Shown one piece after another: positions 37,172 through 52,496 of a stretch of DNA of 62,574 nucleotides (position 1 is the stretch's first letter; each line of letters starts with the position of its first letter). The notes beneath the pieces were generated by a model that was not told where the DNA came from, did no database searches, and saw only the letters and a program-made list of their open reading frames with translations. The stretch comes from Deltaproteobacteria bacterium (GTDB lineage: Bacteria > Myxococcota_C > UBA6777), in the NCBI GenBank assembly GCA_002731275.1, contig PCBK01000084.1:1-62574 (forward strand), read 5' to 3'. The translations under genes and the position numbers were made by a program.

Positions 37172-40100
37172 TCAATCAGATGACTTCTTGTCCTCCGGCT
37201 CATCATCCTGGAGTTCGATTTTGTCGATCTCTTCGATAACTTGCTCGTGCATCAGCTCTTCCTTGACCTGCTCGCGCTCTTCACGACGTTCTTTCCAAAA
37301 CGTCTTGGTTCGATCACTGCGTCCCTCTTCGAACCAATCTCGAGATATATCATCATCTTCGGCAACTTGGGCGATGATAACCATAGAGTCGTAGACAGAC
37401 GGTTTTTTTGTCGTATCTCCAATCATCACGGGAGCATAACGCATAGTATCCGGCCCTGCTTCATCTTCAGACAGAGCATCTTCAAACATCTCAAGTGAGA
37501 GATCTTCCTGCCCATCCACATCTACATCCACGTCGACGTCGTCTTTGATATCGGGGACCTTTAGCTCCGTTGTTGCGAGCAGCTCCGAAGAAATAGCCGG
37601 CAAATGCTCCGATGATGGAGACATTGGAGGCGCAACAGGGATAACGTGTTGCTTTTTCCCTGGTGAAGGAGGCATGGGGATTCGCGTCACACCCTTCTTT
37701 TTCTTCTTGGGTTTGCCGTATTCAGAGTGATCGATGACCACCATTGAGATCGTCTCTTCTTCACCTATCAACGAATCAGAGAGGGGATCCTCTTCCTCGA
37801 CGTATGGAGCATGTTCTTCACTCTGTTCAGCGCCAAGGTCTTCGAGTGATACGTTCATCAAGCTCTCAGGCAAGGTCACCTTCAACGTCTCTTGTGCTTC
37901 GACCTGATCGGCTTCACGTCTGTCGAGAGAGAACGTCTCGTGTTTCGACGTCGGTTCAAAGTCCTCTGAAAGTTCTTCGACTTCATCTTTTGTCGCATCC
38001 TCCTCAACCTCTTTCGGGCTCGTATTCATCACCAAGGATTTGATGTCTTTGGGGAATTCTTGCACAGTTGCCTTCAGATCTCCTTCGGCCTCTGCGACGT
38101 CATCAATGTCCTCGACCTCCTCCTCAGAGGAGACTTCAGCGACCTCAGCCTCTTGGGCTTCTGGAACAATCAGCTCATCAGGGGCGGAGCTTGAAGCTTC
38201 CTGAGTTTCGGATTGATTCTCTGTCTCGGAGTTGCTCTCTTCGACAACAACATCCACCTGTTCGTGTACATCGGGGGTTTCAGCAGGAGAAACGTCAGAA
38301 ACAGCGTGTGTCTCCTCGACAGGTGCAGCTTTATCCTCAACGTCAAGACCCAAAGAAGGTAGCTCCAAAGGCGGCAGACTCATCGCCAGGCGCTCCAAGC
38401 TCGTGACGGCCTTATCGGAGTCCTCTTCCTCCAGTTCTTCGATATCGGGCAACAAAGCAGTCGGTGCTTTCTCTTCTTCCTTCTTTTCTTCGCTGGACTT
38501 CGCAGGAGGTTGTGGAAAGACAGGAGGAGGGAGGACTATTTTTTTGGAGGGACTCACCTGTGGGACGGCGCCGATGACAGTCTTGGCGTCCTCATTTTCC
38601 TCTTCAATTTCGAGTAAATCGTCGTCATCAAGTGCATCTTCTGCGCTGAGCGCCTCGATCTCCTCTTGTGAGAGGCTCTCTTGCACTGCGACTTGTGCTG
38701 CAGGTAATTCATCGGAGGTCTCAACATCCTCGGCATCAAACACAAGAGGAGCGGAGGGTTTTTGTGCCTTTGTGTCCCCCTCAGACGTGGCTCTCTCTGC
38801 GGCCTTTTGCCTACGGAATTCTTCTAATTCAGGCAAAAAGAACGGCTTGGAGACAACCCTGGGCTGACGGAAACGTTGGGGAGGCTCGTTATCTTGTAAC
38901 AGAACCTTCTTCTCTTCTTCGGAGATCACAGCTGGTGTGGGTGCAGGCCCAACTTCGTCTTCATCAAACTGGACGTTGAACTGTAAGGTCCTGTCAGGAC
39001 CGGAGAGACCAGCCCCAGTTGAGAAGAGAGAGATATCGGGCGCTGGAGCCTTCTCTTCCTCCTGAAACTGTTTGACTTCATTTAGGAAACGAGCGGACTC
39101 TTCCTCAAACTTCTGCATATTGAGTCTTCGGAAGTCGGCTTTCGCAAGCTCAAGGTGGTATCGCCCACGCTCAACATTTCCGCGATTCACCTCGTAGAAT
39201 CCAAGCCTCATGCGGCTCTTGGCCTCTTCTTGGAGGTTTTCGTGTTTACTCGCGATCTCGATAGACTCTTCAAAACACGCGAGCGCGTTGCCAAAGTACT
39301 TTTCAGGTAAACCTTCTGCAATCTCATCATCTTCGTTTTGTTCAATGACCTCTTGGGGAAGCGCAGCGTACACATCTCCCATAAGACGGAAGATTCCAGC
39401 GAGGGCCGAACGAATCCCACCTTCTTGGATCAACGCATAGGCATCACGACAATGATCGAGCGCGAGGAGCGCTTCGCTGCGCTTGAGCTCAAGCTCCCCG
39501 AGCAGTCGGTAACACTCCGCCATAATCAGCTTATCTTCAATTTTCTCAGCGATATGGAGGGCTCTTTCGAGATTGTCAGAGGCTTGCTTGAGTTCACCAC
39601 GAAGGAGATACAGTTCGCCGATATTGACGAGGATGACAGCCATCATGAGGCGCTCACCCATCTTCTTCACGAGATTCGCGCTGAGCAGCAGCTCAGCAAG
39701 GGCCGCATCGTAGTTCCCCTTCAGGACGTTGATCGCGGCGAGGTTGTTCATCGACTGTACAGTCTGTGCTGTTTGGCCAAGCTCTTTGCGGATCTCTAAG
39801 GCCTCTTGATGATGTGCCATGGCTTCGTCGAGACGCCCAGTCTGGAGCAAGAGGTTCCCCATATCACTTAGCGTCCATGCGATGTCACCAGGATTTTTCA
39901 TCTCACGTCGCAGGTCGAGTGCTTCTTGGAGATACAAGCGCGCAGTTTGGTAGTCACCGATGACTGTGTAGACCTTCCCCATGTGAGAGAGGGACATTGC
40001 GACGCCACGGGCGTAGTCATTTTCTTTGTGGAGCGCGTGTCCATTCTTCAGGACTTCGAGGGCTCTTTGAAAGTCGCGCAACAAAAAGAACGTCCACCCC

Positions 40101-42403
40101 ATACGGGTGAAGATCTCCGCGGCCAAGACGCGCAAACTCATCTGCCAAGAGATCGACAAAATTTGCTCAAAAGTCTCGATCGCGAGGGGATAGCGACCTT
40201 GTACGATGTAGGTCTCGGCGAGACAACGTAAGGCATCGATGCGCTTTTGGACCCAGGATTCTGGCATATACTGGAGGGCGAGTTCGAGGTGTTCGACAGC
40301 TTTGTTGGTGGCGGAGATCTTGCTCGCGCTCTTTCCAACCTTCAGATGATAAGCCGCAGCACGTTCGAAATCCTGACTTGTCGAGAAATGGTGCGCGAGC
40401 TCCATAAAGAGCTCAACACGACGCTCGCGTGCGGTCACTTCAAGCCACTGACCAGCACTTCGATGGTACGAAATTCTCGTCTCCATCGGGATCTCTTGGT
40501 ACACTAACTCTTGCATCAAAGAGGGAACAAACAGGTATTGTGCTTCCCCTTCCAGGACGGATTGGTTTTGATACTGGATCACGCCAAGCTGGACGAGTTG
40601 ATCGAGCACTTCTTCCAAGTCATCTTTGCGATTGAGGAAGACACCATCTTGCATCTTCCAGCCAGGACGAAAGTCTCCCTCTTTACGATACAACATCTCG
40701 ACACCACCGCGCCAAAACGTTTTTCCAAAGACAGAGGCTTTTTGCAACACTTCACGCGCAAATGTATCCAAACGAGACAAGCGAGAGAGTAAGATCCCCT
40801 CGATACTTCCAGGGATTTCCAGGTTCTCGACATCGTCGCCGTGGACGAGCACTTCGGAGAAGTCTCGTTCGACAAGCTCGCGAATACTCTCGCGTAAAAA
40901 GTAGGGGTTCCCCTCGGCGATAGTAAGAATACGTTTGAGCAATTTGCGGGGAAGTTGGCTCCCCGAAGGCAAGAGCTCCTCAGCCATCTTTTGCGCCGAC
41001 TCGTGATCCAGTGGCTTGAGCACCAGACGCTCTCCTGGCAGCTGCAACCCTGCGTCTCTCTCCAACTCCAAAAAGAACGAAGTGCGTGTTGTGCAAATGA
41101 ACAAACACTGTGTGTCCTCTAACTCCTCAGTCAAAAACTGCAACAAACGCAAAGAAGAGCTGTCTGCGGAGTACAAGCTGTCGAGCACAAATAACATCGG
41201 CTTGCTCTGCGCGCACAACATCAAGAACTCGGAGAACGCTGTAAAGGCGAGCTTTTCAAGCTGCGCAGGATCATCATCGACTGCCGCAATATGAGGCGAG
41301 CCAGGAAAATCAACCTGGCACAAGAGGCCCATCAGGTGGATCGACTCCTCAGGGAACGTACCGATCAGCGCGGCTTCCACACCTTCGAGCAGCTTTTGTC
41401 TACAGACATCCCCTTCGTCGTTTTCCTGGATGTCAAAGAAGGAACGCAGGATGTCGCCAAAGTACGAGTAAGGCGTACGACGCCAACGATCCACTCGTCG
41501 TCGTTGACGAGGATTCTTAAACAACGTCGCGCGACCTTTGGCGACGTTGATAAGCTCTCGAACCAAACGACTCTTACCAGTCCCGAGCTCACCTGTCAGA
41601 GAGAAGAAGATCGGGCCTTCTCCCCGCTCAACGCGCTCAAAAGCACGTACCATACGGCCAAGCTCTCTTGTCCTTCCGACAAGCTCAGGCTCAACACTCA
41701 ACTCTGTAGTTGTGTGCGTCCCTTGTACATCGTACAACCCACGACCAAAAAAGGTCCCTTCGAGATTTTCGACGCGCACACATCTGAACGTGTCGCGGAT
41801 CATGCGGTGGGTTAAGCCATCGACACGTAGCGTTCCGGCTTCGGCCTCTTCGACGTAACGAAGAGCCTTGTCGAGTAACTCATGTCCTTCGAGTTCGCCG
41901 TCCTCCCCAACGCGAATCAGGTCTGTATTTTTTGCGTCGTTGGAGATCCGACCTGTACAGGCGACGAGACGGATAGGAGGTGTTTTTTTTGAGAGTGAGA
42001 CCAACCGCAACACTTTTAACGAAACGGTGACTGCTGTGATGGGATCTTCTTCTGTGGGAAACTGCATGCCAAAAGTTGCGGCAAACCGACCTTCACCGAG
42101 GTCTTCGAAGTGTCCCCCACTCTCTGTGATCACGAGACGCACACGTCCCATCATACGCTTGTGGAGCGTTTCAATCGCGGCCGCGTCAAGCGCTCCATCG
42201 CCTCCAAACTCTCCATATACAAACGTCACCTGGATCCGCGGCCCTCTTCGCCCCGCTGGCCCCTCTGACGAAGAAGCATCTGCGAGGAGTTGGGTACCAC
42301 ACTCCCCGCAAAAACGCTTACCAACTGGGTTTGGAGATCCACATTGACGACAGGACTCCATGTCCGTTGTATGCGTTTTTTGTTCATGCTTCGATTCAAC
42401 CAT
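37172..42403 (-). CDS. Zinc-ribbon, cyclase-like, AAA ATPase, TPR protein with acidic tail
   Basis: A 1743-residue signalling protein. A zinc ribbon (CRQCGSPN...CGECG) covers residues 18-36. A class III nucleotide-cyclase-like domain follows (about 55-215), in which the two metal-binding Asp positions read Glu (VYGEFGG; LGEGRFAATFG). It is probably not a cyclase. A STAND/AAA-type ATPase follows with Walker A GELGTGKS near 271 and LFVLDSLYSADSS as Walker B. About ten TPR units span about 640-1060. The last 600 residues are very acidic, low-complexity, with short conserved-looking islands. It resembles cyclase-ATPase-TPR regulators of Myxococcota and may respond to phosphorylation. GAGG lies eight bases before the ATG. 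Confidence 0.88.
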   Translation of the reverse strand: MVESKHEQKTHTTDMESCRQCGSPNPVGKRFCGECGTQLLADASSSEGPAGRRGPRIQVTFVYGEFGGDGALDAAAIETLHKRMMGRVRLVITESGGHFEDLGEGRFAATFGMQFPTEEDPITAVTVSLKVLRLVSLSKKTPPIRLVACTGRISNDAKNTDLIRVGEDGELEGHELLDKALRYVEEAEAGTLRVDGLTHRMIRDTFRCVRVENLEGTFFGRGLYDVQGTHTTTELSVEPELVGRTRELGRMVRAFERVERGEGPIFFSLTGELGTGKSRLVRELINVAKGRATLFKNPRQRRRVDRWRRTPYSYFGDILRSFFDIQENDEGDVCRQKLLEGVEAALIGTFPEESIHLMGLLCQVDFPGSPHIAAVDDDPAQLEKLAFTAFSEFLMLCAQSKPMLFVLDSLYSADSSSLRLLQFLTEELEDTQCLFICTTRTSFFLELERDAGLQLPGERLVLKPLDHESAQKMAEELLPSGSQLPRKLLKRILTIAEGNPYFLRESIRELVERDFSEVLVHGDDVENLEIPGSIEGILLSRLSRLDTFAREVLQKASVFGKTFWRGGVEMLYRKEGDFRPGWKMQDGVFLNRKDDLEEVLDQLVQLGVIQYQNQSVLEGEAQYLFVPSLMQELVYQEIPMETRISYHRSAGQWLEVTARERRVELFMELAHHFSTSQDFERAAAYHLKVGKSASKISATNKAVEHLELALQYMPESWVQKRIDALRCLAETYIVQGRYPLAIETFEQILSISWQMSLRVLAAEIFTRMGWTFFLLRDFQRALEVLKNGHALHKENDYARGVAMSLSHMGKVYTVIGDYQTARLYLQEALDLRREMKNPGDIAWTLSDMGNLLLQTGRLDEAMAHHQEALEIRKELGQTAQTVQSMNNLAAINVLKGNYDAALAELLLSANLVKKMGERLMMAVILVNIGELYLLRGELKQASDNLERALHIAEKIEDKLIMAECYRLLGELELKRSEALLALDHCRDAYALIQEGGIRSALAGIFRLMGDVYAALPQEVIEQNEDDEIAEGLPEKYFGNALACFEESIEIASKHENLQEEAKSRMRLGFYEVNRGNVERGRYHLELAKADFRRLNMQKFEEESARFLNEVKQFQEEEKAPAPDISLFSTGAGLSGPDRTLQFNVQFDEDEVGPAPTPAVISEEEKKVLLQDNEPPQRFRQPRVVSKPFFLPELEEFRRQKAAERATSEGDTKAQKPSAPLVFDAEDVETSDELPAAQVAVQESLSQEEIEALSAEDALDDDDLLEIEEENEDAKTVIGAVPQVSPSKKIVLPPPVFPQPPAKSSEEKKEEEKAPTALLPDIEELEEEDSDKAVTSLERLAMSLPPLELPSLGLDVEDKAAPVEETHAVSDVSPAETPDVHEQVDVVVEESNSETENQSETQEASSSAPDELIVPEAQEAEVAEVSSEEEVEDIDDVAEAEGDLKATVQEFPKDIKSLVMNTSPKEVEEDATKDEVEELSEDFEPTSKHETFSLDRREADQVEAQETLKVTLPESLMNVSLEDLGAEQSEEHAPYVEEEDPLSDSLIGEEETISMVVIDHSEYGKPKKKKKGVTRIPMPPSPGKKQHVIPVAPPMSPSSEHLPAISSELLATTELKVPDIKDDVDVDVDVDGQEDLSLEMFEDALSEDEAGPDTMRYAPVMIGDTTKKPSVYDSMVIIAQVAEDDDISRDWFEEGRSDRTKTFWKERREEREQVKEELMHEQVIEEIDKIELQDDEPEDKKSSD

Positions 42404-44231: not shown

Positions 44232-47219
44232 TCATCGAAGGAAACGCAGAAACTTCTTCTCGAAGCCTCCCAGTCCACGTGATCCAACGTGGTAGAGCTT
44301 GATCTTTCCTCTCTTGAGGATCACAAAGGTCGGCGTCGCACGAACTCTCATCTTCCTCGACAATCCGCGCTTTTTATCACGTGCATTGTAGAACGGCATA
44401 TCGCGTGGATGGCTTTTGAGCCAGCGAACGATCGTGTGCGCCTTTTCGTTGCTCACGGTCACAATGCGCAATCCTCGGCTGGCGTACTTCTGTTTCCAAC
44501 GTCTCATCGTCGGCAGCGCAGCCTTACAAGGTCCACACCACGTCGCCCAGAAGAAAACCAGGACTGTGTCTTTGTCGAGATTGGGAAGCTTTGACTGTTT
44601 GCTCAACAATTCGAGGCTACTCAGTCCTGGCAGCTTACGACCAATGATCGGTGGCAGCTTCATCGTCGGCGGTGAGACGAGGCGCTTGAGCCTCACAGGA
44701 AGATCGAGAATGTGTCCCTTACGGATAATCCTCATCAAGACAGGTTGCTCAGGCTTCGCAAGCATCACGCGTTCGCGAATTTCATAGGGTTCACGGAGTT
44801 GGCGTCCACCAACCGCGACGATCATGTCACCAGTCATCAAGCCAGAGGCTTTCGCTGGCGTGTTCAAGTAGACATTCTGGATCTCGATGGCACCTGTTGG
44901 CAGCTCAGGGTGGCGCTTGTGAGCGGGTCGAAAGGAGATCCCAAACCACGAAGGTAGAGGAACGTTCTTAAGCGAAAAGCTCATCGGTTTGGGTGCAGCG
45001 AGCTTTGTGTCGGCGAGTTGTGGCTCGTTGGACAGAGGCGTCTGCTCACACCCAAGTAAACGCTGGAGCCCTTGGTGGTGAGCCTGGTACTCGGGATCTT
45101 TATCGAGATAAAGGAGTTTCCGCCCGGCGATACGATACAACAACAACTCCATGCGTTTGAGCGCCGCACGTTGGACCTTCAACCTGAAGACGTGTTTTTT
45201 CATCTCTTCGACACGGCTGTAAAGGAGCTGCAGTCGCGACTTGAGCTGTGGTCTAGAGTCGACGTACGTAAGAAATCCTTTGCGCAAGGTGTCGACGATC
45301 CGCTCGACAGGCCAGTGCAATCGCTTACCTTTGCGCAAGATACGATTGCGAAGCTTTCGCAAGTTCCGCATACGTCGAGCACGACCACGTCGATTGCGGC
45401 GACGTCGATTGCGCCAACGTCTACGATTGTAACGACGTCGGAGTTTTCGACGAGTTCGCTCAAATTGTCTATCTCTCCAGGCTTTTAGACGTTGTGCTTT
45501 GGTCAATCGTCGGTAGCGACGCTTGCGTTTGGTCCCTCTGACCTTTTTCAGCATGCCGCGGAGATCTTTGACCTCCTTGGAGAGTTTTCGATACTTTTTC
45601 CACAGGCGCGCCCTCTTCCACGCATTCGCGAGGCGGCGCTTGAGACGCTTTCGACGCTCAGCTTTGCGTTGCTTCTTGCTCTTCTTCAACAGGTGAAGAT
45701 TTTTGAGCAGGTACTTCACCTCACCACGCAACATAGGTGTCTCTTTGAGCCAACCATCGAGATGATGACTGCGCGCGGTTGAAAAGACGCTGCGCCACAT
45801 TCGCTCAACACGACGGAACCACCGAAGTCTTTTATTTAATGATTTGCGCTGTGCACGAAGCGCCGAGAGGTTGAGTGGACGTGCTAGAGAGAAGCGTTGT
45901 GCGACAGCGCTTAACACAGACAGGTCTTCTTTCATCCCTGGGTAGGACTTTCCTTCAAAGCGCTTGAGAATGCGGTCCACGTATACGTGAGGTTTCACAC
46001 CATCGGCCTTTGCGTCCCCTTTCAAGAAGAAGTACAGATATCCATCGGAGCTACGGTTAGGCACGTCAGGGGTCACATCAGTCAACAGGACTTGCTTGTG
46101 CGCTTCATTAAATGTACGCGCTTGTCTCATCGCATGGATAAAACGGTAGGCGTGCCCCACACTCTTTTTCAACTTGGTCTCAGGAAAGCATCCATAAGAG
46201 TAGCGATTTGGGAGCGTCGCGTAGAAGCCACACTGATCGCCTGTTGGGATACCAAAGCGCCCAGGCTTGCGGAAGATGCTCCAGGCAAAACTGCCCGAAA
46301 AACACTGTGACATGACGCTCACAACTTTGCGCTTGGAGAAGCGCCTCATCATGAGTTGATATTGTTGAACACTCAGGCTCTCGTACCACAACGAAATGCG
46401 TTGATTACGTGTATGACGAAGGCGACGATTTCGCGTCCCGTGATCTGTCACAAAGACAAAGAGAGGCTTGCCGTCGTCTTTCAGCGTCTTGTGCACGCGC
46501 TTCATCTCTTTTACGAGGACAGAACGCTTGGCCTCGTGCAACCGCGTCCCTTTGATGCTCGAATTGATAAGGGTGGGTTTTCTCGGAAAGAAACGAAGCT
46601 CTCGACGAAAACGAAAGAGCCAATGTTCAGGTCGCTTTTCGCTTCGCTGAATGGCAAGATCTGGATCTGTGTCCTCACCATCGCTCGCAAAGATCGACAT
46701 AAATGGGTCTTCCACACCGAGCTCTTGCAGCACCTGCCTCATCAATCGAAGGTACAGCAAGTGAGAGTAGTAATTGACATGAGGTTTCCATCCACCACTG
46801 ATCAACACAGAGTGGGCAAAAGGTCCGTTGTTTTTGATCGCTTTTGGTGGGATGCGTCTTTTGAGCACTGGGACCTTTGGGAACGGCGGCATGATCAAGT
46901 GCTTGCCCTTCGACAAAGCGCGTCGAGGGGGCATATGTGCAGGACGAGAAGTGGGCCGGGTTGTCGGTTGGGCCACAACTCTTTTTGTAGGGCGCTTTTC
47001 CGCTAGCTTGCGAACAGGTGCACGCTTGACCACTCGTTTTGTCGGCTTGCTGGTCGCAGAAGAGGGCTTTGCGATGGCAGTTGACGCCAGTCCCCCACAT
47101 CCAAAGAGCACCAAAGAGACCATACCAGACCACCGAAGGGTCTTACTTGTGCGTATGTCATTCAACACGAAAGACCGCGACGCAGACTGTTCATCGGATA
47201 CCTTTGTCAATGTCTTCAT
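44232..47219 (-). CDS. C13/legumain-like peptidase, PDZ and thioredoxin fusion, exported
   Basis: A 995-residue exported protein with an unusual domain order. The signal region contains LFGC, so it may be a lipoprotein, or a signal peptidase I site near AIA-KP. Residues of about 125-400 look like a clan CD cysteine peptidase (C13/legumain-like): a hydrophobic strand then TDHG with His260, and VSVMSQCFSGSF with Cys306. Residues of about 500-690 are an extreme Arg/Lys-rich helix. A PDZ domain (about 760-850) contains NTPAKASGLMTGDMIVAVGG. A TlpA-type thioredoxin ends the protein, with WATWCGPC (Cys895, Cys898) and ATPTFVIL. All catalytic residues of peptidase and thioredoxin are present. It follows a CcmH-like and a TlpA-like gene. 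GGAG touches the ATG, so a TTG nine bases later (47210) is a plausible start. Confidence 0.85.
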   Translation of the reverse strand: MKTLTKVSDEQSASRSFVLNDIRTSKTLRWSGMVSLVLFGCGGLASTAIAKPSSATSKPTKRVVKRAPVRKLAEKRPTKRVVAQPTTRPTSRPAHMPPRRALSKGKHLIMPPFPKVPVLKRRIPPKAIKNNGPFAHSVLISGGWKPHVNYYSHLLYLRLMRQVLQELGVEDPFMSIFASDGEDTDPDLAIQRSEKRPEHWLFRFRRELRFFPRKPTLINSSIKGTRLHEAKRSVLVKEMKRVHKTLKDDGKPLFVFVTDHGTRNRRLRHTRNQRISLWYESLSVQQYQLMMRRFSKRKVVSVMSQCFSGSFAWSIFRKPGRFGIPTGDQCGFYATLPNRYSYGCFPETKLKKSVGHAYRFIHAMRQARTFNEAHKQVLLTDVTPDVPNRSSDGYLYFFLKGDAKADGVKPHVYVDRILKRFEGKSYPGMKEDLSVLSAVAQRFSLARPLNLSALRAQRKSLNKRLRWFRRVERMWRSVFSTARSHHLDGWLKETPMLRGEVKYLLKNLHLLKKSKKQRKAERRKRLKRRLANAWKRARLWKKYRKLSKEVKDLRGMLKKVRGTKRKRRYRRLTKAQRLKAWRDRQFERTRRKLRRRYNRRRWRNRRRRNRRGRARRMRNLRKLRNRILRKGKRLHWPVERIVDTLRKGFLTYVDSRPQLKSRLQLLYSRVEEMKKHVFRLKVQRAALKRMELLLYRIAGRKLLYLDKDPEYQAHHQGLQRLLGCEQTPLSNEPQLADTKLAAPKPMSFSLKNVPLPSWFGISFRPAHKRHPELPTGAIEIQNVYLNTPAKASGLMTGDMIVAVGGRQLREPYEIRERVMLAKPEQPVLMRIIRKGHILDLPVRLKRLVSPPTMKLPPIIGRKLPGLSSLELLSKQSKLPNLDKDTVLVFFWATWCGPCKAALPTMRRWKQKYASRGLRIVTVSNEKAHTIVRWLKSHPRDMPFYNARDKKRGLSRKMRVRATPTFVILKRGKIKLYHVGSRGLGGFEKKFLRFLR

Positions 47220-47237: not shown

Positions 47238-48092
47238 TCAGGATTCCTCAACGACGTCATACCAGGAATCCCCCGAGGTCTTGTCACCATCTTTTTTAGA
47301 TGGTTCCTTTTTCTTCGTTGAGGAGGACTTCTTCTTTTTCTTCTTTTTCTTCGAAGAGGACTTTTTCGTCTCTTGTTCAGCAGACGCGGTCTTCTTCTTC
47401 TTGTCTACCTTCTCCGCAGACTTTGTCTTTGCGAGATCTTTCTCATAGCGGCCATGCCACACCCTGATCATCCCAAACGCAACCAAAAAGACGATGATGG
47501 AGACGATGACAGGGAACCAAAAGAGTTTTTGGTCCTGGGGTATGCTCAAAATACGCTCACCGTATTTGCCGACGTACATCGCGATGATTTTCTTGTCCGA
47601 GAATCCCTGCAGAATAAATGTACGTAATTGTTCTTTGACCTGATCGGACGCTCCACTCGGGTGGACAGAGACAGGTTGTGTGTAACAACAAGGTGAGATG
47701 ATCAGGTCTGTGAGCCGCCGAAAACGCAGCAATTGTTCGCGGGTCAGGCGCTTCACGACTTTGTTGGAGACGACTGTTTTGCGCCGGACAGGTGGCACCT
47801 GTCGTCGCTCACGCAGCACTCGTGAGAGCGTCTTCTTGTTTCGGATAGGCTGCAAGCGAACACGGCGGCCCTGTGTAGGCACAACACGCTTGATGTTTGG
47901 TGCAGGTGTTGGAATAGGACGAACTGCGATCGGTCGTACACTCACAGGACGAACAGTTGTCGGTGCATTTGCGGGGGTGTCAGCCCACAACAAAGAAGGC
48001 GTTGACAGTGCCATGGTCAAGAAGAGTCCAACCCAACACAACCGCAGAGTATTGTGTGCGGGGTGTTTCTTGGACAGATGACGCATCATCAT
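47238..48092 (-). CDS. CcmH-like membrane protein with poly-Lys tail
   Basis: A 284-residue protein with a signal peptide, then a Pro/Arg/Val-rich stretch. A CcmH/NrfF-like domain lies around residues 120-185: LIISPCCYTQPVSVHPS, then QVKEQLRTFILQGFSDKKIIAMYVGKYGERIL. CcmH normally has CxxC for handling apocytochrome c thiols; here the cysteines are adjacent. A membrane segment (FPVIVSIIVFLVAFGMI) follows, then a cytoplasmic tail of nearly pure Lys/Ser. It lies between the TlpA-like gene and the C13-PDZ-thioredoxin gene (18-base gap), so it is probably part of a thiol-handling unit. GGAG lies five bases before the first of three ATGs. Confidence 0.78.
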   Translation of the reverse strand: MMMRHLSKKHPAHNTLRLCWVGLFLTMALSTPSLLWADTPANAPTTVRPVSVRPIAVRPIPTPAPNIKRVVPTQGRRVRLQPIRNKKTLSRVLRERRQVPPVRRKTVVSNKVVKRLTREQLLRFRRLTDLIISPCCYTQPVSVHPSGASDQVKEQLRTFILQGFSDKKIIAMYVGKYGERILSIPQDQKLFWFPVIVSIIVFLVAFGMIRVWHGRYEKDLAKTKSAEKVDKKKKTASAEQETKKSSSKKKKKKKKSSSTKKKEPSKKDGDKTSGDSWYDVVEES

Positions 48093-48188: not shown

Positions 48189-48755
48189 CTATGAGGGTTT
48201 GTTTTGCATCGACTTGACCTTTTGGATCAAGTTGATGAGTGGTTTTGTTGGAATGTACCCTTTGATAAAGGCACCTATTTTTCCGTGCTGATCGACGATC
48301 ACAAGGGAGGGAAGTGCGCGCACACCGTAGCTCGACAAGGCCTGTTTTCTGGCATCATGAAAATGAACGGTGAATTGGGAAGGTGAGATACGTTGTCTGC
48401 GCAAAAACGCCTTGAGCTGCTCGGCTTGGTTCGGTTCATCGACGTTGACCATCAGATACCGAACACCACGTTTGCGAAATGCGAGCGCACGACGCGTGGA
48501 AGAACGAAGGGTTCGAACACATGTAGGACACCACATCGCCCAAAAGTGAAGGACGGTGACCTGCTTTCGGGCAGGGATCGTCGTTGGGGCGTCGGACGTT
48601 GCAACGGACTGTAGAGAGAGAGAGGGCGCGGGCGCTCCACGAGAGAGCGTTTTCCCACGACTAAAGAACATTTGGTAAGCGAGCAACGCAAAGAGCAGAA
48701 TCCAAAATATTTGTATACCTAATGGCGTCTTTGCGGTTGTCTCTTGTGCTTGCAT
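48189..48755 (-). CDS. TlpA/ResA-like thioredoxin, membrane anchored
   Basis: A 188-residue membrane-tethered thiol-disulfide oxidoreductase. One N-terminal membrane segment (IQIFWILLFALLAYQMFF) is followed by a thioredoxin fold facing the periplasm. The active site is HFWAMWCPTCV, and RALPSLVIVD holds the cis-Pro. It would reduce or oxidise exported cysteines. Its ATG overlaps the adenosine deaminase stop by one base (TAATG), so the two are co-transcribed. The 96-bp gap downstream holds a short ATCAC/GTGAT element and nothing else I can name. Confidence 0.9.
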   Translation of the reverse strand: MQAQETTAKTPLGIQIFWILLFALLAYQMFFSRGKTLSRGAPAPSLSLQSVATSDAPTTIPARKQVTVLHFWAMWCPTCVRTLRSSTRRALAFRKRGVRYLMVNVDEPNQAEQLKAFLRRQRISPSQFTVHFHDARKQALSSYGVRALPSLVIVDQHGKIGAFIKGYIPTKPLINLIQKVKSMQNKPS

Positions 48756-49984
48756 TACGCGTCCTCTCGTACCACACCAAAGCGCTCTTCGATCGACTCG
48801 TAGTAGTCGATGATTTTGCGCACATATGCGCGTTTTTCGAGGTAGGTGTCGGGGTAAAAACTTCGCTTAAACCCGTAGATAACGATATTTCGAAGCTGCT
48901 TCGGCGTCAAGTTGAAGTGCTCGACAGCCAGCTCAATCTCGTTGGAGACAGTTGTGTTGGAGACGGTCCTGTTATCCGTACACAGGCTGATGCTCATCTT
49001 GGAGTCGAGCATGTGTCTCATCGTGTGCTCAGAGAGGCTCTTGAGCTCAGGCATGGTCTGGAGGTTACTCGTGAGGCAGACCTCGATGGTGATGCGGTGG
49101 TTGGCGATGTACTGAGCGAGATTGTTGACGTATTTTTGCTTGTCGTGGATGCGTGGATCTTTGACACGATCCGCACTAAACAGGTGATAACAGTGACCGA
49201 TGCGATCGGCGTGGAGATCCGTGATGGCCTGGAAGATACTCTCAGGACCATAAGCCTCTCCAGCGTGGACGGTTTTTTTGAGGAAGTGTTTGTGCGCGTA
49301 TTGGAACGCCTGGACATGATCTTCTGCGGGATAACCATCTTCTTGTCCAGCGAGGTCGAAGGCGACGATAGGCAGATTCTCTTCGCGTTTGATCGCGACG
49401 ACCGCCTCCGCGAGCGCCATTGACGCGAGTCCGTACAAGCGCGGCGTTTGTGTGTGCGTCAAGACACCTGTAAACCTTCGGAAGTACTCGGAGAAACCTC
49501 CTGTAAACATCCTCATCGCGCAGACGATGATGCCGTACTCAAAAGGTGGCTCTTTGCCCTCTTTGACCGCAGGAAAGTTGTTAAACTCCTTTTTGGCACG
49601 GAGCAAACCAGCGTTGACGTGACGAAGCACCTCAGCGATGCTCATACCTGGCCGTGCGTGGAGCTGTGGCGCGAAACGGACTTCGAGATAACGGACACCC
49701 TCTGCAAAGTTATCACAGGCCAGCTCATACGCACAGCGCTGCAATGCTTCATCAGTTTGGAGTGTCGCGACGGTATACTGGAAGCCGTGGAGATATTCGC
49801 CCAGATTCGCGTACCGATCTTTGAAAACGGTCTCTTTCAGTCCTGCTTCATCATAGGATGGGAGGGGAACTTTTTGATCGCGTGCCAGCTCGATCAGCGT
49901 TTGGATACGTACTGAGCCGTCAAGGTGGAGGTGAAGATCTGTTTTGGGGATGGCCTGGATGAATTCGGATGAAATATTCGACAT
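48755..49984 (-). CDS. add: Adenosine deaminase
   Basis: A 409-residue zinc-dependent enzyme turning adenosine into inosine. TDLHLHLDGS provides the first metal His pair, TVHAGEAYGPE and ADRIGHCYH the middle motifs, and SLCTDNRTVSNTT the conserved Asp region. The family-typical VRYLEVRFAPQLH lies between. The ATG at 49984 has AAAGGG five bases upstream; an in-frame start at 50011 is less likely. It heads the thioredoxin/CcmH/peptidase operon and lies back to back with the molybdenum hydroxylase genes, which suggests purine breakdown. The 238-bp gap to 50222 should hold the divergent promoters. Confidence 0.93.
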   Translation of the reverse strand: MSNISSEFIQAIPKTDLHLHLDGSVRIQTLIELARDQKVPLPSYDEAGLKETVFKDRYANLGEYLHGFQYTVATLQTDEALQRCAYELACDNFAEGVRYLEVRFAPQLHARPGMSIAEVLRHVNAGLLRAKKEFNNFPAVKEGKEPPFEYGIIVCAMRMFTGGFSEYFRRFTGVLTHTQTPRLYGLASMALAEAVVAIKREENLPIVAFDLAGQEDGYPAEDHVQAFQYAHKHFLKKTVHAGEAYGPESIFQAITDLHADRIGHCYHLFSADRVKDPRIHDKQKYVNNLAQYIANHRITIEVCLTSNLQTMPELKSLSEHTMRHMLDSKMSISLCTDNRTVSNTTVSNEIELAVEHFNLTPKQLRNIVIYGFKRSFYPDTYLEKRAYVRKIIDYYESIEERFGVVREDA

Positions 49985-50222
49985 ACTAACCCTTTCTAAA
50001 CATAAATCCATGCATTACGAGAGTGCATGAAGTGAGGTTCGTTCATAAGATCGTTATCTATCACATCCAAGTCAACATTCCAAGACGACTTGTCCGCAAA
50101 AAACGAGCGGTTGACACAGGAGCATGGAGAGGATACCATCAAATCACCGTCTGGGCATGGTCTTGACCCCGCAAGCGCTGCCCAACATACAGCTCTACAA
50201 AAGATGAGGAGGCGTATCCAAT

Positions 50223-52496
50223 TTGGCAACGCACCGTGTTGTAGGACGTCCACTGCCGCGCATCGACGCGATCGAGAAAGCGACAGGAGAGGCACGTTAC
50301 ATTGATGATTGTTTTGAGGAGAGCGCGCTCTTTGTCGCGACCCTCGGAAGTCCCAGTGCCCACATCCGCATCCGTCGACTTGACATCACCTCAGCGCTCC
50401 AGACTCCCGGGGTCATCAAAGTCCTGACCGCCAGAGATATTCCAGGAACCAACCGCCTCCCTTGGTGGCCTCAGCCCTTCCTCGTCGAGCACGAAGCACT
50501 CTATCACGGCGCCCCCATCGCCCTCGTGATCGCCGAAAGCGAAGACGCTGCCCGTATTGGTGTCGACAACATCCATATCGACTACGAATCCCTTCCCCAC
50601 GTCACCTCCATCGAAAGCGCGCTCAAAGAAGACGCCCCAGCCTTAACAGTCACACGTCACGGTCGCAATGTCTGGTTCCGCGAAGAGCGCTCACAAGGCG
50701 ATATCGACGAAGCCTTTTCGGACGCGGATGTGCTCCTCCAGCGCACCTACCACACCCCTTTTCACGCCACGGGAAACCTCGAACCTGCAGGTGTCATCGC
50801 CGAGCCCGATCCAGACGGTGGGATTATCGTCTCAGGTTCTCTTGAGCCACCCTTCGCGGTCCAAGAGTCACTCGCGACCTTGTTGGAGTTGCCATACAAT
50901 CGCATCCGCATCGTCCAACGTCCACTCGGCGGAAGTGGTGGCGCAAAGGCCGAAGGTGCCAGCTTGCTCGCCGGCCATGCAGCCCTTGCGGCGTGGCTCA
51001 CAGGTCGACAAACACGTATGATCTACAGCAGCACCGAGGACTTTTTGCTCACAGGCAAACAACTCCCCTGCCAGATCAAAGTCAAATGTGGCGCTCTTCG
51101 GGATGGGACCATTCTTGGGTGCCACATCCAACTCCTCCTGCAGGGAGGAGCCTACATCTCGACACAAGAGAGCGCACTCAAACGAGCTATTGCACACGCT
51201 GTTGGGCCGTACAATATCCCCAACGTCCACATCGATGCCAAAGTCATCGCCACCCACCACGCCCCCTACATAGCCCTCAACGGATACGGACAAAGCGCAC
51301 TTTGCTTTGCCATCGAATGTCTCCTCGATGAGCTCTCTCAAAAGCTCTCCCTCGACCCGCTCGCGCTTCGCAGACAAAACATGCTTACACCCGGTGCCCC
51401 AATGCTTTGGGAGCAAACCACCGCAGAGACCTGTCAGCTCCCGGCCTTGTTGGAGGCTGTTGAAGAAGCGTCGAACTGGCACACGGCACGAACACAATCC
51501 CCAGACACGCCAGAGCACATCAAACGCGGCATTGGTATCGCGCTCAGTTACACCGGTATTGGCGCAGGATACGAGTCATCCGTCCCCGAACACGCGACCG
51601 CATCGATTCAATTACAACGGGATGGAACCGTCCTCGTCGCGACGGCCCACGCCGAAACAGGACAAGGTTCACGAACGCTCCTCGCGCAGATGGTCGCAGA
51701 TGACCTCGCCGCTCCCTATGAGTCCATTCGCGTCCTTGAATCCGACACCACGCGCGTCACTGATGGAAGCCGTAGAATGCACGCTCACTCCTTCCTCGCG
51801 AGTGGACACGCGCTCCTCAAAGCAACCGCCCCTCTAAGACAACAGCTCATCCAAACGGCTGCGAGAATGCTCTACACAGCCGAAAGCAACATCATCCTCA
51901 AACCAGGACGCTTTATCAGCAAAAGTGGAAAACACGTCTCCTTCACAGAGGTCGTCGAGACTTGCTGGAATGTCGGTATGCCCATGGCACAATACGGCTG
52001 GTATGCCCTCCCACACCAAGGCGATGAATCACTCTACCCTCTCTATGCATACGCCGCACAAATCGCCGAAGTCGAGATCGACATGGAGACGTTTGACATC
52101 CGCGTCTGCAACATCTACTCAGCACACGACATCGGACACAATATCAACCCAATGCTCACACAAAGCGCCGTAGAATCAGGTGTCATACAAGGACTCGGGT
52201 TGGCCCTCCTCGAACGACTCTCCTTTTCCAATGGTGAGATGAACAACGGCAACCTTCGCGATTACACCATCCCCTCCATGAAAGATCTTCCACACATCAA
52301 GACCTTCTTCCTCCAAGAAGAAGCACCGAACTGCCCTTTTGGGTACAAAAGTTTGGGTGCAAGTCCGCTCCTCGCCATCCCCCCCGCTATCATCAACGCC
52401 ATCACACATGCGATCGGCGTGCCGATCGACTCTCTCCCTGTCACTCCCGAAGCCCTCTACGAACTTCTCTCTGCTGACAAGCGCTACAGCGACTGA
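50223..52496 (+). CDS. Molybdenum hydroxylase large subunit, xanthine dehydrogenase family, catalytic residues replaced
   Basis: A 757-residue molybdopterin-binding subunit. PRIDAIEKATGEARYIDD starts the family's first domain; GGSGGAKAEG, AETGQGSRT and DYTIPSMKDLP are later family motifs. The Arg of the active-site AFRGFG motif reads Asn353 (ALNGYG) and the general base Glu of GEPP reads Ala713 (LGASPLL). Both residues are needed in xanthine dehydrogenase, so hydroxylation of a purine is doubtful. The 2Fe-2S subunit is intact and the genes are close (12 bases), so a complex probably forms. The start is TTG, with GAGGAGG eleven bases upstream. Divergent from adenosine deaminase. Confidence 0.85.
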   Translation: MATHRVVGRPLPRIDAIEKATGEARYIDDCFEESALFVATLGSPSAHIRIRRLDITSALQTPGVIKVLTARDIPGTNRLPWWPQPFLVEHEALYHGAPIALVIAESEDAARIGVDNIHIDYESLPHVTSIESALKEDAPALTVTRHGRNVWFREERSQGDIDEAFSDADVLLQRTYHTPFHATGNLEPAGVIAEPDPDGGIIVSGSLEPPFAVQESLATLLELPYNRIRIVQRPLGGSGGAKAEGASLLAGHAALAAWLTGRQTRMIYSSTEDFLLTGKQLPCQIKVKCGALRDGTILGCHIQLLLQGGAYISTQESALKRAIAHAVGPYNIPNVHIDAKVIATHHAPYIALNGYGQSALCFAIECLLDELSQKLSLDPLALRRQNMLTPGAPMLWEQTTAETCQLPALLEAVEEASNWHTARTQSPDTPEHIKRGIGIALSYTGIGAGYESSVPEHATASIQLQRDGTVLVATAHAETGQGSRTLLAQMVADDLAAPYESIRVLESDTTRVTDGSRRMHAHSFLASGHALLKATAPLRQQLIQTAARMLYTAESNIILKPGRFISKSGKHVSFTEVVETCWNVGMPMAQYGWYALPHQGDESLYPLYAYAAQIAEVEIDMETFDIRVCNIYSAHDIGHNINPMLTQSAVESGVIQGLGLALLERLSFSNGEMNNGNLRDYTIPSMKDLPHIKTFFLQEEAPNCPFGYKSLGASPLLAIPPAIINAITHAIGVPIDSLPVTPEALYELLSADKRYSD

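Follow-up and report, generated by a model that had tools for sequence, protein, structure and literature searches.

The cysteine peptidases of family C13 include legumain, which is specific for Asn or Asp at P1, and GPI8, a subunit of the GPI transamidase. Access to the active site of legumain is controlled, and can be blocked, by a helical C-domain (PMC4357240). A 2012 survey of prokaryotic caspase homologues makes no mention of PDZ, C13 or redox (PMC3501461). The PDZ protease DegP degrades unligated apocytochromes c in other bacteria (PMC5742617), and in known systems electrons run from DsbD to CcmG and on to CcmH (PMC8782879). Our literature search returned no description of a C13-helical-PDZ-thioredoxin fusion, and likewise none of a C13-thioredoxin pairing. 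Here we describe such a fusion, encoded in a stretch of 62,574 nucleotides from a Deltaproteobacteria bacterium (contig PCBK01000084.1), hereafter the window. Each of its domains is already known, and relative to the searched literature the four-part combination is new.

Domain layout of the window protein

The gene lies at 44232-47219 on the minus strand, as do all of its features given below, and comprises 995 codons from the ATG (P0001, 995 amino acids). The initial annotation had placed a C13 peptidase, a PDZ domain and a thioredoxin in one exported protein, and Pfam matches the three in that order. Export is supported by an N-terminal hydrophobic segment that was recognized by eye both here and in the paralogues. 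In the window protein it falls within the predicted signal of residues 1-50 (47070-47219), which contains the hydrophobic MVSLVLFGCGGLASTAIA and a non-conserved cysteine, C41. A basic Pro/Thr-rich linker evident from the sequence follows (residues 51-130; 46830-47069), and then the C13-like clan CD peptidase domain (residues 131-430; 45930-46829), which is supported by Pfam, profile comparison and conservation. Between the peptidase and the PDZ domain is a region that appears rich in helix and that the initial annotation had missed (about residues 431-735; 45015-45929); it is conserved in a 17-sequence alignment and terminates in LLxCExT. An extremely basic insert, characteristic of the window-type paralogue (paralogue A, below), occupies residues 508-650 (45270-45698), as judged by counts of Lys and Arg against Asp and Glu: residues 505-655 contain 71 K/R and 8 D/E. 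This Arg/Lys-rich insert inside the helical region is largely missing from the other two paralogues. The layout, from the export segment and the Asn, His and Cys positions to the order of the domains, was read from the sequence, as were the operon and the apparently single origin of the fusion described below.

The PDZ domain (residues 756-846; 44682-44954) is of the HtrA type and has a PSWFGI loop. It matches Pfam PDZ_2 at residues 760-843 with 35.7 bits against a cut-off of 27. The thioredoxin domain is TlpA/ResA-like with an ATPTF cis-Pro loop (P963) and spans residues 859-982 (44274-44645). Its Pfam AhpC-TSA/thioredoxin match (residues 859-974; 52.9 bits against a cut-off of 26) places it in the thioredoxin superfamily. 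The annotated WCGPC motif is intact, with C895-G-P-C898 at 44526-44537. NCBIfam models of HtrA/DegP match the PDZ domain, and those of ResA, DsbE and TlpA match the thioredoxin, all far under their cut-offs (for the subfamilies, DsbE 36.3 vs 123.15 bits and ResA 52.9 vs 170 bits). No trypsin-like serine protease domain was matched by Pfam in the 995-amino-acid protein, the HtrA models matching the PDZ domain alone. There are seven cysteines (C41, C306, C330, C344, C724, C895 and C898), and except for C41 in the signal region they are invariant across the family genomes.

Relatives and origin of the fusion

The initial annotation had called for a search for the fusion, and the paralogues and relatives that this revealed are additions to it. 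Five genomes of the window's family contain up to three paralogues each of the same architecture, designated A, B and C, some copies of which are cut by contig ends. Paralogue A is the window type, B has an N-terminal lipobox and C an N-terminal anchor, the features of B and C having been assigned by eye. When a profile of the peptidase region was compared with 386 genomes spread over the domain, one further full-length relative was found, in a genome of another phylum (G378), and within that phylum 23 of 359 genomes gave a long match. Seven of these relatives were compared with Pfam; six matched thioredoxin, most matched PDZ and six matched C13 (some under the cut-off), in the same order. Judged by these predicted domains, the same design is conserved across two bacterial phyla. 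A contig scan returned thioredoxin relatives alone, and a plasmid search gave no match.

Many relatives have neither a PDZ domain nor a thioredoxin. In these, for example L100 and L063, the peptidase and helical region are the same, including C330 and the CE motif (Cys724-Glu725 in the window protein), but the chain ends just past CE. In a tree of 87 peptidase cores, all fused proteins fall on one side of a single branch (SH-aLRT 99), although the tree was rooted at its midpoint and "clade" is therefore used conditionally. The 36 proteins on the fused side are 30 with a thioredoxin, all of which retain CxxC, three copies truncated at contig ends or by frame breaks, two whose chain is peptidase-helical-PDZ-like but has no thioredoxin (L099 and L170), and one that has kept its thioredoxin without the cysteines, SGKG replacing CxxC (L159:1165-3681, plus strand). 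The A, B and C paralogues of the window's family group together (SH-aLRT 99). Because all fused proteins lie on one side of that branch, the fusion looks to be of single origin, and the simplest reading of the tree would be one fusion event, after which the gene was duplicated in the window lineage and the thioredoxin was occasionally lost or decayed. Addition of a PDZ-thioredoxin segment after the CE motif would fit, since that is where many of the relatives without these domains end.

A different protein that combines C13-like and thioredoxin (CLPC) domains was seen in genome G272 (L089:6548-8257, plus strand). Both domains are above their Pfam cut-offs, and the protein has weak TPR matches, no PDZ domain and no evident signal peptide. 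It looks like an independent, differently ordered fusion of the same two activities, which suggests that the pairing of C13 and thioredoxin is functional.

Identity of the peptidase

The peptidase region is well supported as a member of clan CD by its motifs and profile matches. The initial annotation had described an intact His260/Cys306 dyad and had looked to orthologues for its conservation; both residues, like WCGPC, were verified codon by codon, and both are conserved. The predicted catalytic His, H260 in FVTDHG (46440-46442), occurs in 35 of the 36 proteins of the fused clade, the exception being a Q in L172. The predicted catalytic Cys, C306 in VMSQCFSG (46302-46304), occurs in 36/36. 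N149 of an NYxSH motif (46773-46775; 34/34) matches the position of NYRH in legumain-type C13 enzymes, and C344 (46188-46190; 36/36) is equivalent to the Cys in the S[YF][AG]C motif of legumain and bacterial C13 proteins. The NYRH motif is present in L130 and L148.

Pfam Peptidase_C13 (PF01650) matches residues 240-369 at 23.0 bits, where the cut-off is 22.8 (26.3 bits for the domain alone), and several fused relatives score just under the cut-off. This match is weak taken alone, yet it is backed by the conservation of H260 and C306 and by the aligned relatives, 11 of 11 of which match C13 at E 0.1 or better (best E 9.9e-8), with no match to Peptidase_C14 at E 0.1 among the 11 in the corresponding test for metacaspases and orthocaspases. 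Comparison by hhalign gave nearly equal results for bacterial C13 proteins (probability 97, E 1e-11) and C14-like proteins (probability 98, E 1e-13), with both alignments spanning both active-site motifs and shuffled-column controls under 0.5. On the basis of Pfam and the Y-G-C motif common to legumain and bacterial C13, assignment to C13 is favoured over C14 but is not fully settled. In profile comparison, two legumain-like proteins of genome G192 did not align significantly with the family, and close kinship with legumain itself is therefore not claimed. Searched against PDB sequences, the family profile gave chance matches alone, and a single-sequence AlphaFold2 model of the peptidase domain, for which a caspase/legumain-like alpha/beta fold would be expected, reached a pLDDT of just 34.

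The window protein thus shares with legumain and GPI8 the His-Gly and Cys-Ser-Gly motifs, the NYxSH motif and the Cys of the Y-G-C motif, but it differs from C13 enzymes in its weak model match and in the helical region, PDZ domain and thioredoxin that come after the peptidase. Its S1-pocket positions also look unlike those of legumain proper (NYYSH vs NYRH), a difference that is at most suggestive.

Conserved cysteines outside the redox motif

In addition to C344, the initial annotation had overlooked C330 (46230-46232; 36/36 in the fused clade) and C724 of the CE motif (45048-45050; 34/34). Among 83 proteins readable at both positions, C330 is present in 60/60 that have C724, and 13 of the 23 without C724 also lack C330; for some proteins the C724 state was judged by eye from the tail. 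C344 has been lost in L202, L203, L204 and L206 while C330 and C724 remain. Since C724 implies C330 while C344 can be lost independently, we propose C330 as the partner of C724 in an interdomain disulfide that would join the helical region to the peptidase. The pattern suggests such a bond from few independent events, and an independent-pairs test of the two positions was not significant, there being too few independent changes (1-4 pairs). By analogy with the C-domain of legumain, the helical region may have a similar control role. The C330-C724 pair also occurs in relatives without thioredoxin, so the fused thioredoxin need not act on it.

Genomic context

The gene for paralogue A belongs to a group whose first gene is adenosine deaminase (48755-50011, minus strand; Pfam), followed by a membrane-anchored ResA/CcmG-like thioredoxin with WCPTC (48189-48755, minus strand; Pfam and NCBIfam), a CcmH-like protein (47238-48092, minus strand; Pfam 38.1 bits against 25), and the fusion gene, 18 nt downstream of ccmH. 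The group is conserved in the window genome and in G002, G003 and G004, the four family genomes where it is visible. No other CcmH was found in the window genome, and CcmF/CcmC-type and DsbD-type proteins are encoded elsewhere. The thioredoxin of the window protein resembles CcmG, ResA and TlpA in its fold, its WCxxC and its cis-Pro loop, and its gene adjoins one for such a protein as well as ccmH; the difference is that it is joined to a protease. Because the operon with the ResA/CcmG-like thioredoxin and the sole CcmH is conserved, paralogue A is probably linked with cytochrome c maturation. Paralogues B and C, like the relatives scanned from the other phylum, sit among unrelated genes, for example those for protein kinase, sulfatase, radical-SAM and RND transporter proteins, and this confinement of the Ccm linkage to paralogue A counts against the function proposed below.

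Other features of the neighbourhood were observed. CcmH normally carries LRCxxC, and the CcmH-like protein here has CCYTQP in its place, together with a long tail rich in Lys and Ser. A xanthine-dehydrogenase-type molybdopterin subunit (50223-52496, plus strand) is encoded divergently from the adenosine deaminase, and the two (48755-52496) are possibly purine catabolism genes beside the thiol genes. On the other side, a 1743-amino-acid protein (37172-42403, minus strand) contains a zinc ribbon, an AAA ATPase, TPRs and a long acidic C-terminal region; its best NCBIfam match, far under the cut-off, is a TOMM kinase/cyclase model.

Proposed function and alternatives

Given the conservation of this design in two phyla, proteolysis is probably coupled to thiol chemistry in the envelope of these bacteria. 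We tentatively propose, at somewhat under an even chance, that it is an exported C13-like clan CD endopeptidase linked to envelope thiol chemistry in a quality-control role. Peptidase activity, tail binding by the PDZ domain, reduction by donors of the DsbD type and the role of the thioredoxin are inferred. The PDZ domain would recruit C-terminal or unfolded tails, a binding role that the initial annotation had suggested and that an HtrA-type domain with a PSWFGI loop makes plausible. The fused thioredoxin would be reduced through DsbD/CcdA, like CcmG and ResA, and may have as its targets the cysteines of the protease itself, bound substrates or both: it could keep Cys306 reduced, open disulfides within bound substrates, or open a C330-C724 disulfide tying the helical region to the peptidase. 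For paralogue A, envelope proteins prone to disulfide formation, for instance apocytochromes c, would be the most likely clients, given the operon with the sole CcmH and the CcmG/ResA-like thioredoxin. The protein resembles HtrA/DegP in its type of PDZ domain and its envelope location and probably does the same kind of job, but with a clan CD cysteine peptidase instead of a trypsin-like serine protease and with an added thioredoxin. The envelope-stress protease of the initial annotation is compatible with this proposal.

Two narrower readings overlap with thiol-linked quality control. The thioredoxin may act on substrates only, opening the disulfides of misfolded proteins bound by the PDZ domain, which a constitutively active peptidase then cuts. 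The HtrA-type PDZ domain beside a ResA/TlpA-type reductase fold, the operon shared with thiol reductants and the precedent of DegP and apocytochromes c (PMC5742617) all speak for it, and we regard it as a serious possibility, if on balance not the expected one, since it leaves the conserved C330-C724 pair unexplained. A self-contained redox switch, in which the fused thioredoxin oxidizes or reduces Cys306 or C330-C724 so that the protease is on in one state, is rather unlikely, though far from negligible. Control of the active-site Cys by the thioredoxin, as first suggested in the initial annotation, is plausible given the four invariant cysteines outside the thioredoxin and a CxxC in a single chain, the co-occurrence of C330 and C724, and the blocking of the legumain active site by its helical C-domain (PMC4357240). 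However, proteins without thioredoxin still keep C330 and C724, and within the fused clade the thioredoxin appears not to be strictly required, its absence from L099 and L170 and the loss of its cysteines in L159 arguing against an obligatory switch. The most specific form of the quality-control proposal is doubtful: a C330-C724 disulfide would lock the legumain-like helical region on the peptidase, the DsbD/CcdA-reduced fused thioredoxin would unlock it, and for paralogue A, encoded next to CcmH, this would couple surveillance of apocytochromes c to the electron flow of maturation.

It is improbable that the protein is a transamidase or C-terminal sorting enzyme whose PDZ domain recognizes C-terminal tags, for instance the MYXO-CTERM tails with their Cys. 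The match to the C13 model would suit such an enzyme, as would the 19 MYXO-CTERM matches in the window genome against 0 in 14 controls, but these tags are handled by an intramembrane protease, myxosortase (PMC11980579), and the fusion occurs in just 23 of the 359 genomes of the other phylum. The tags, described as universal in Myxococcota (PMC11980579), were seen at 19 places in the window genome (G000), which suggests a Myxococcota-like host; the phylum of this genome differs from that of the G378 group according to kinship labels. Finally, the pro-death effector offered in the initial annotation is very improbable, having clan CD family resemblance alone in its favour, while the window protein is exported, has up to three paralogues per genome, matches no PADLOC-DB family (0 families) and has thiol-reducing and cytochrome c maturation proteins, with no defence or toxin-antitoxin genes, among its conserved neighbours.

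Significance

The searched literature says little on the role of bacterial C13 peptidases. The family described here ties a C13 peptidase to thiol chemistry, and one paralogue to cytochrome c maturation, and it provides a testable case in which proteolysis and disulfide reduction are built into one envelope protein. Should the switch prove real, bacteria would have a legumain-type enzyme under redox control.
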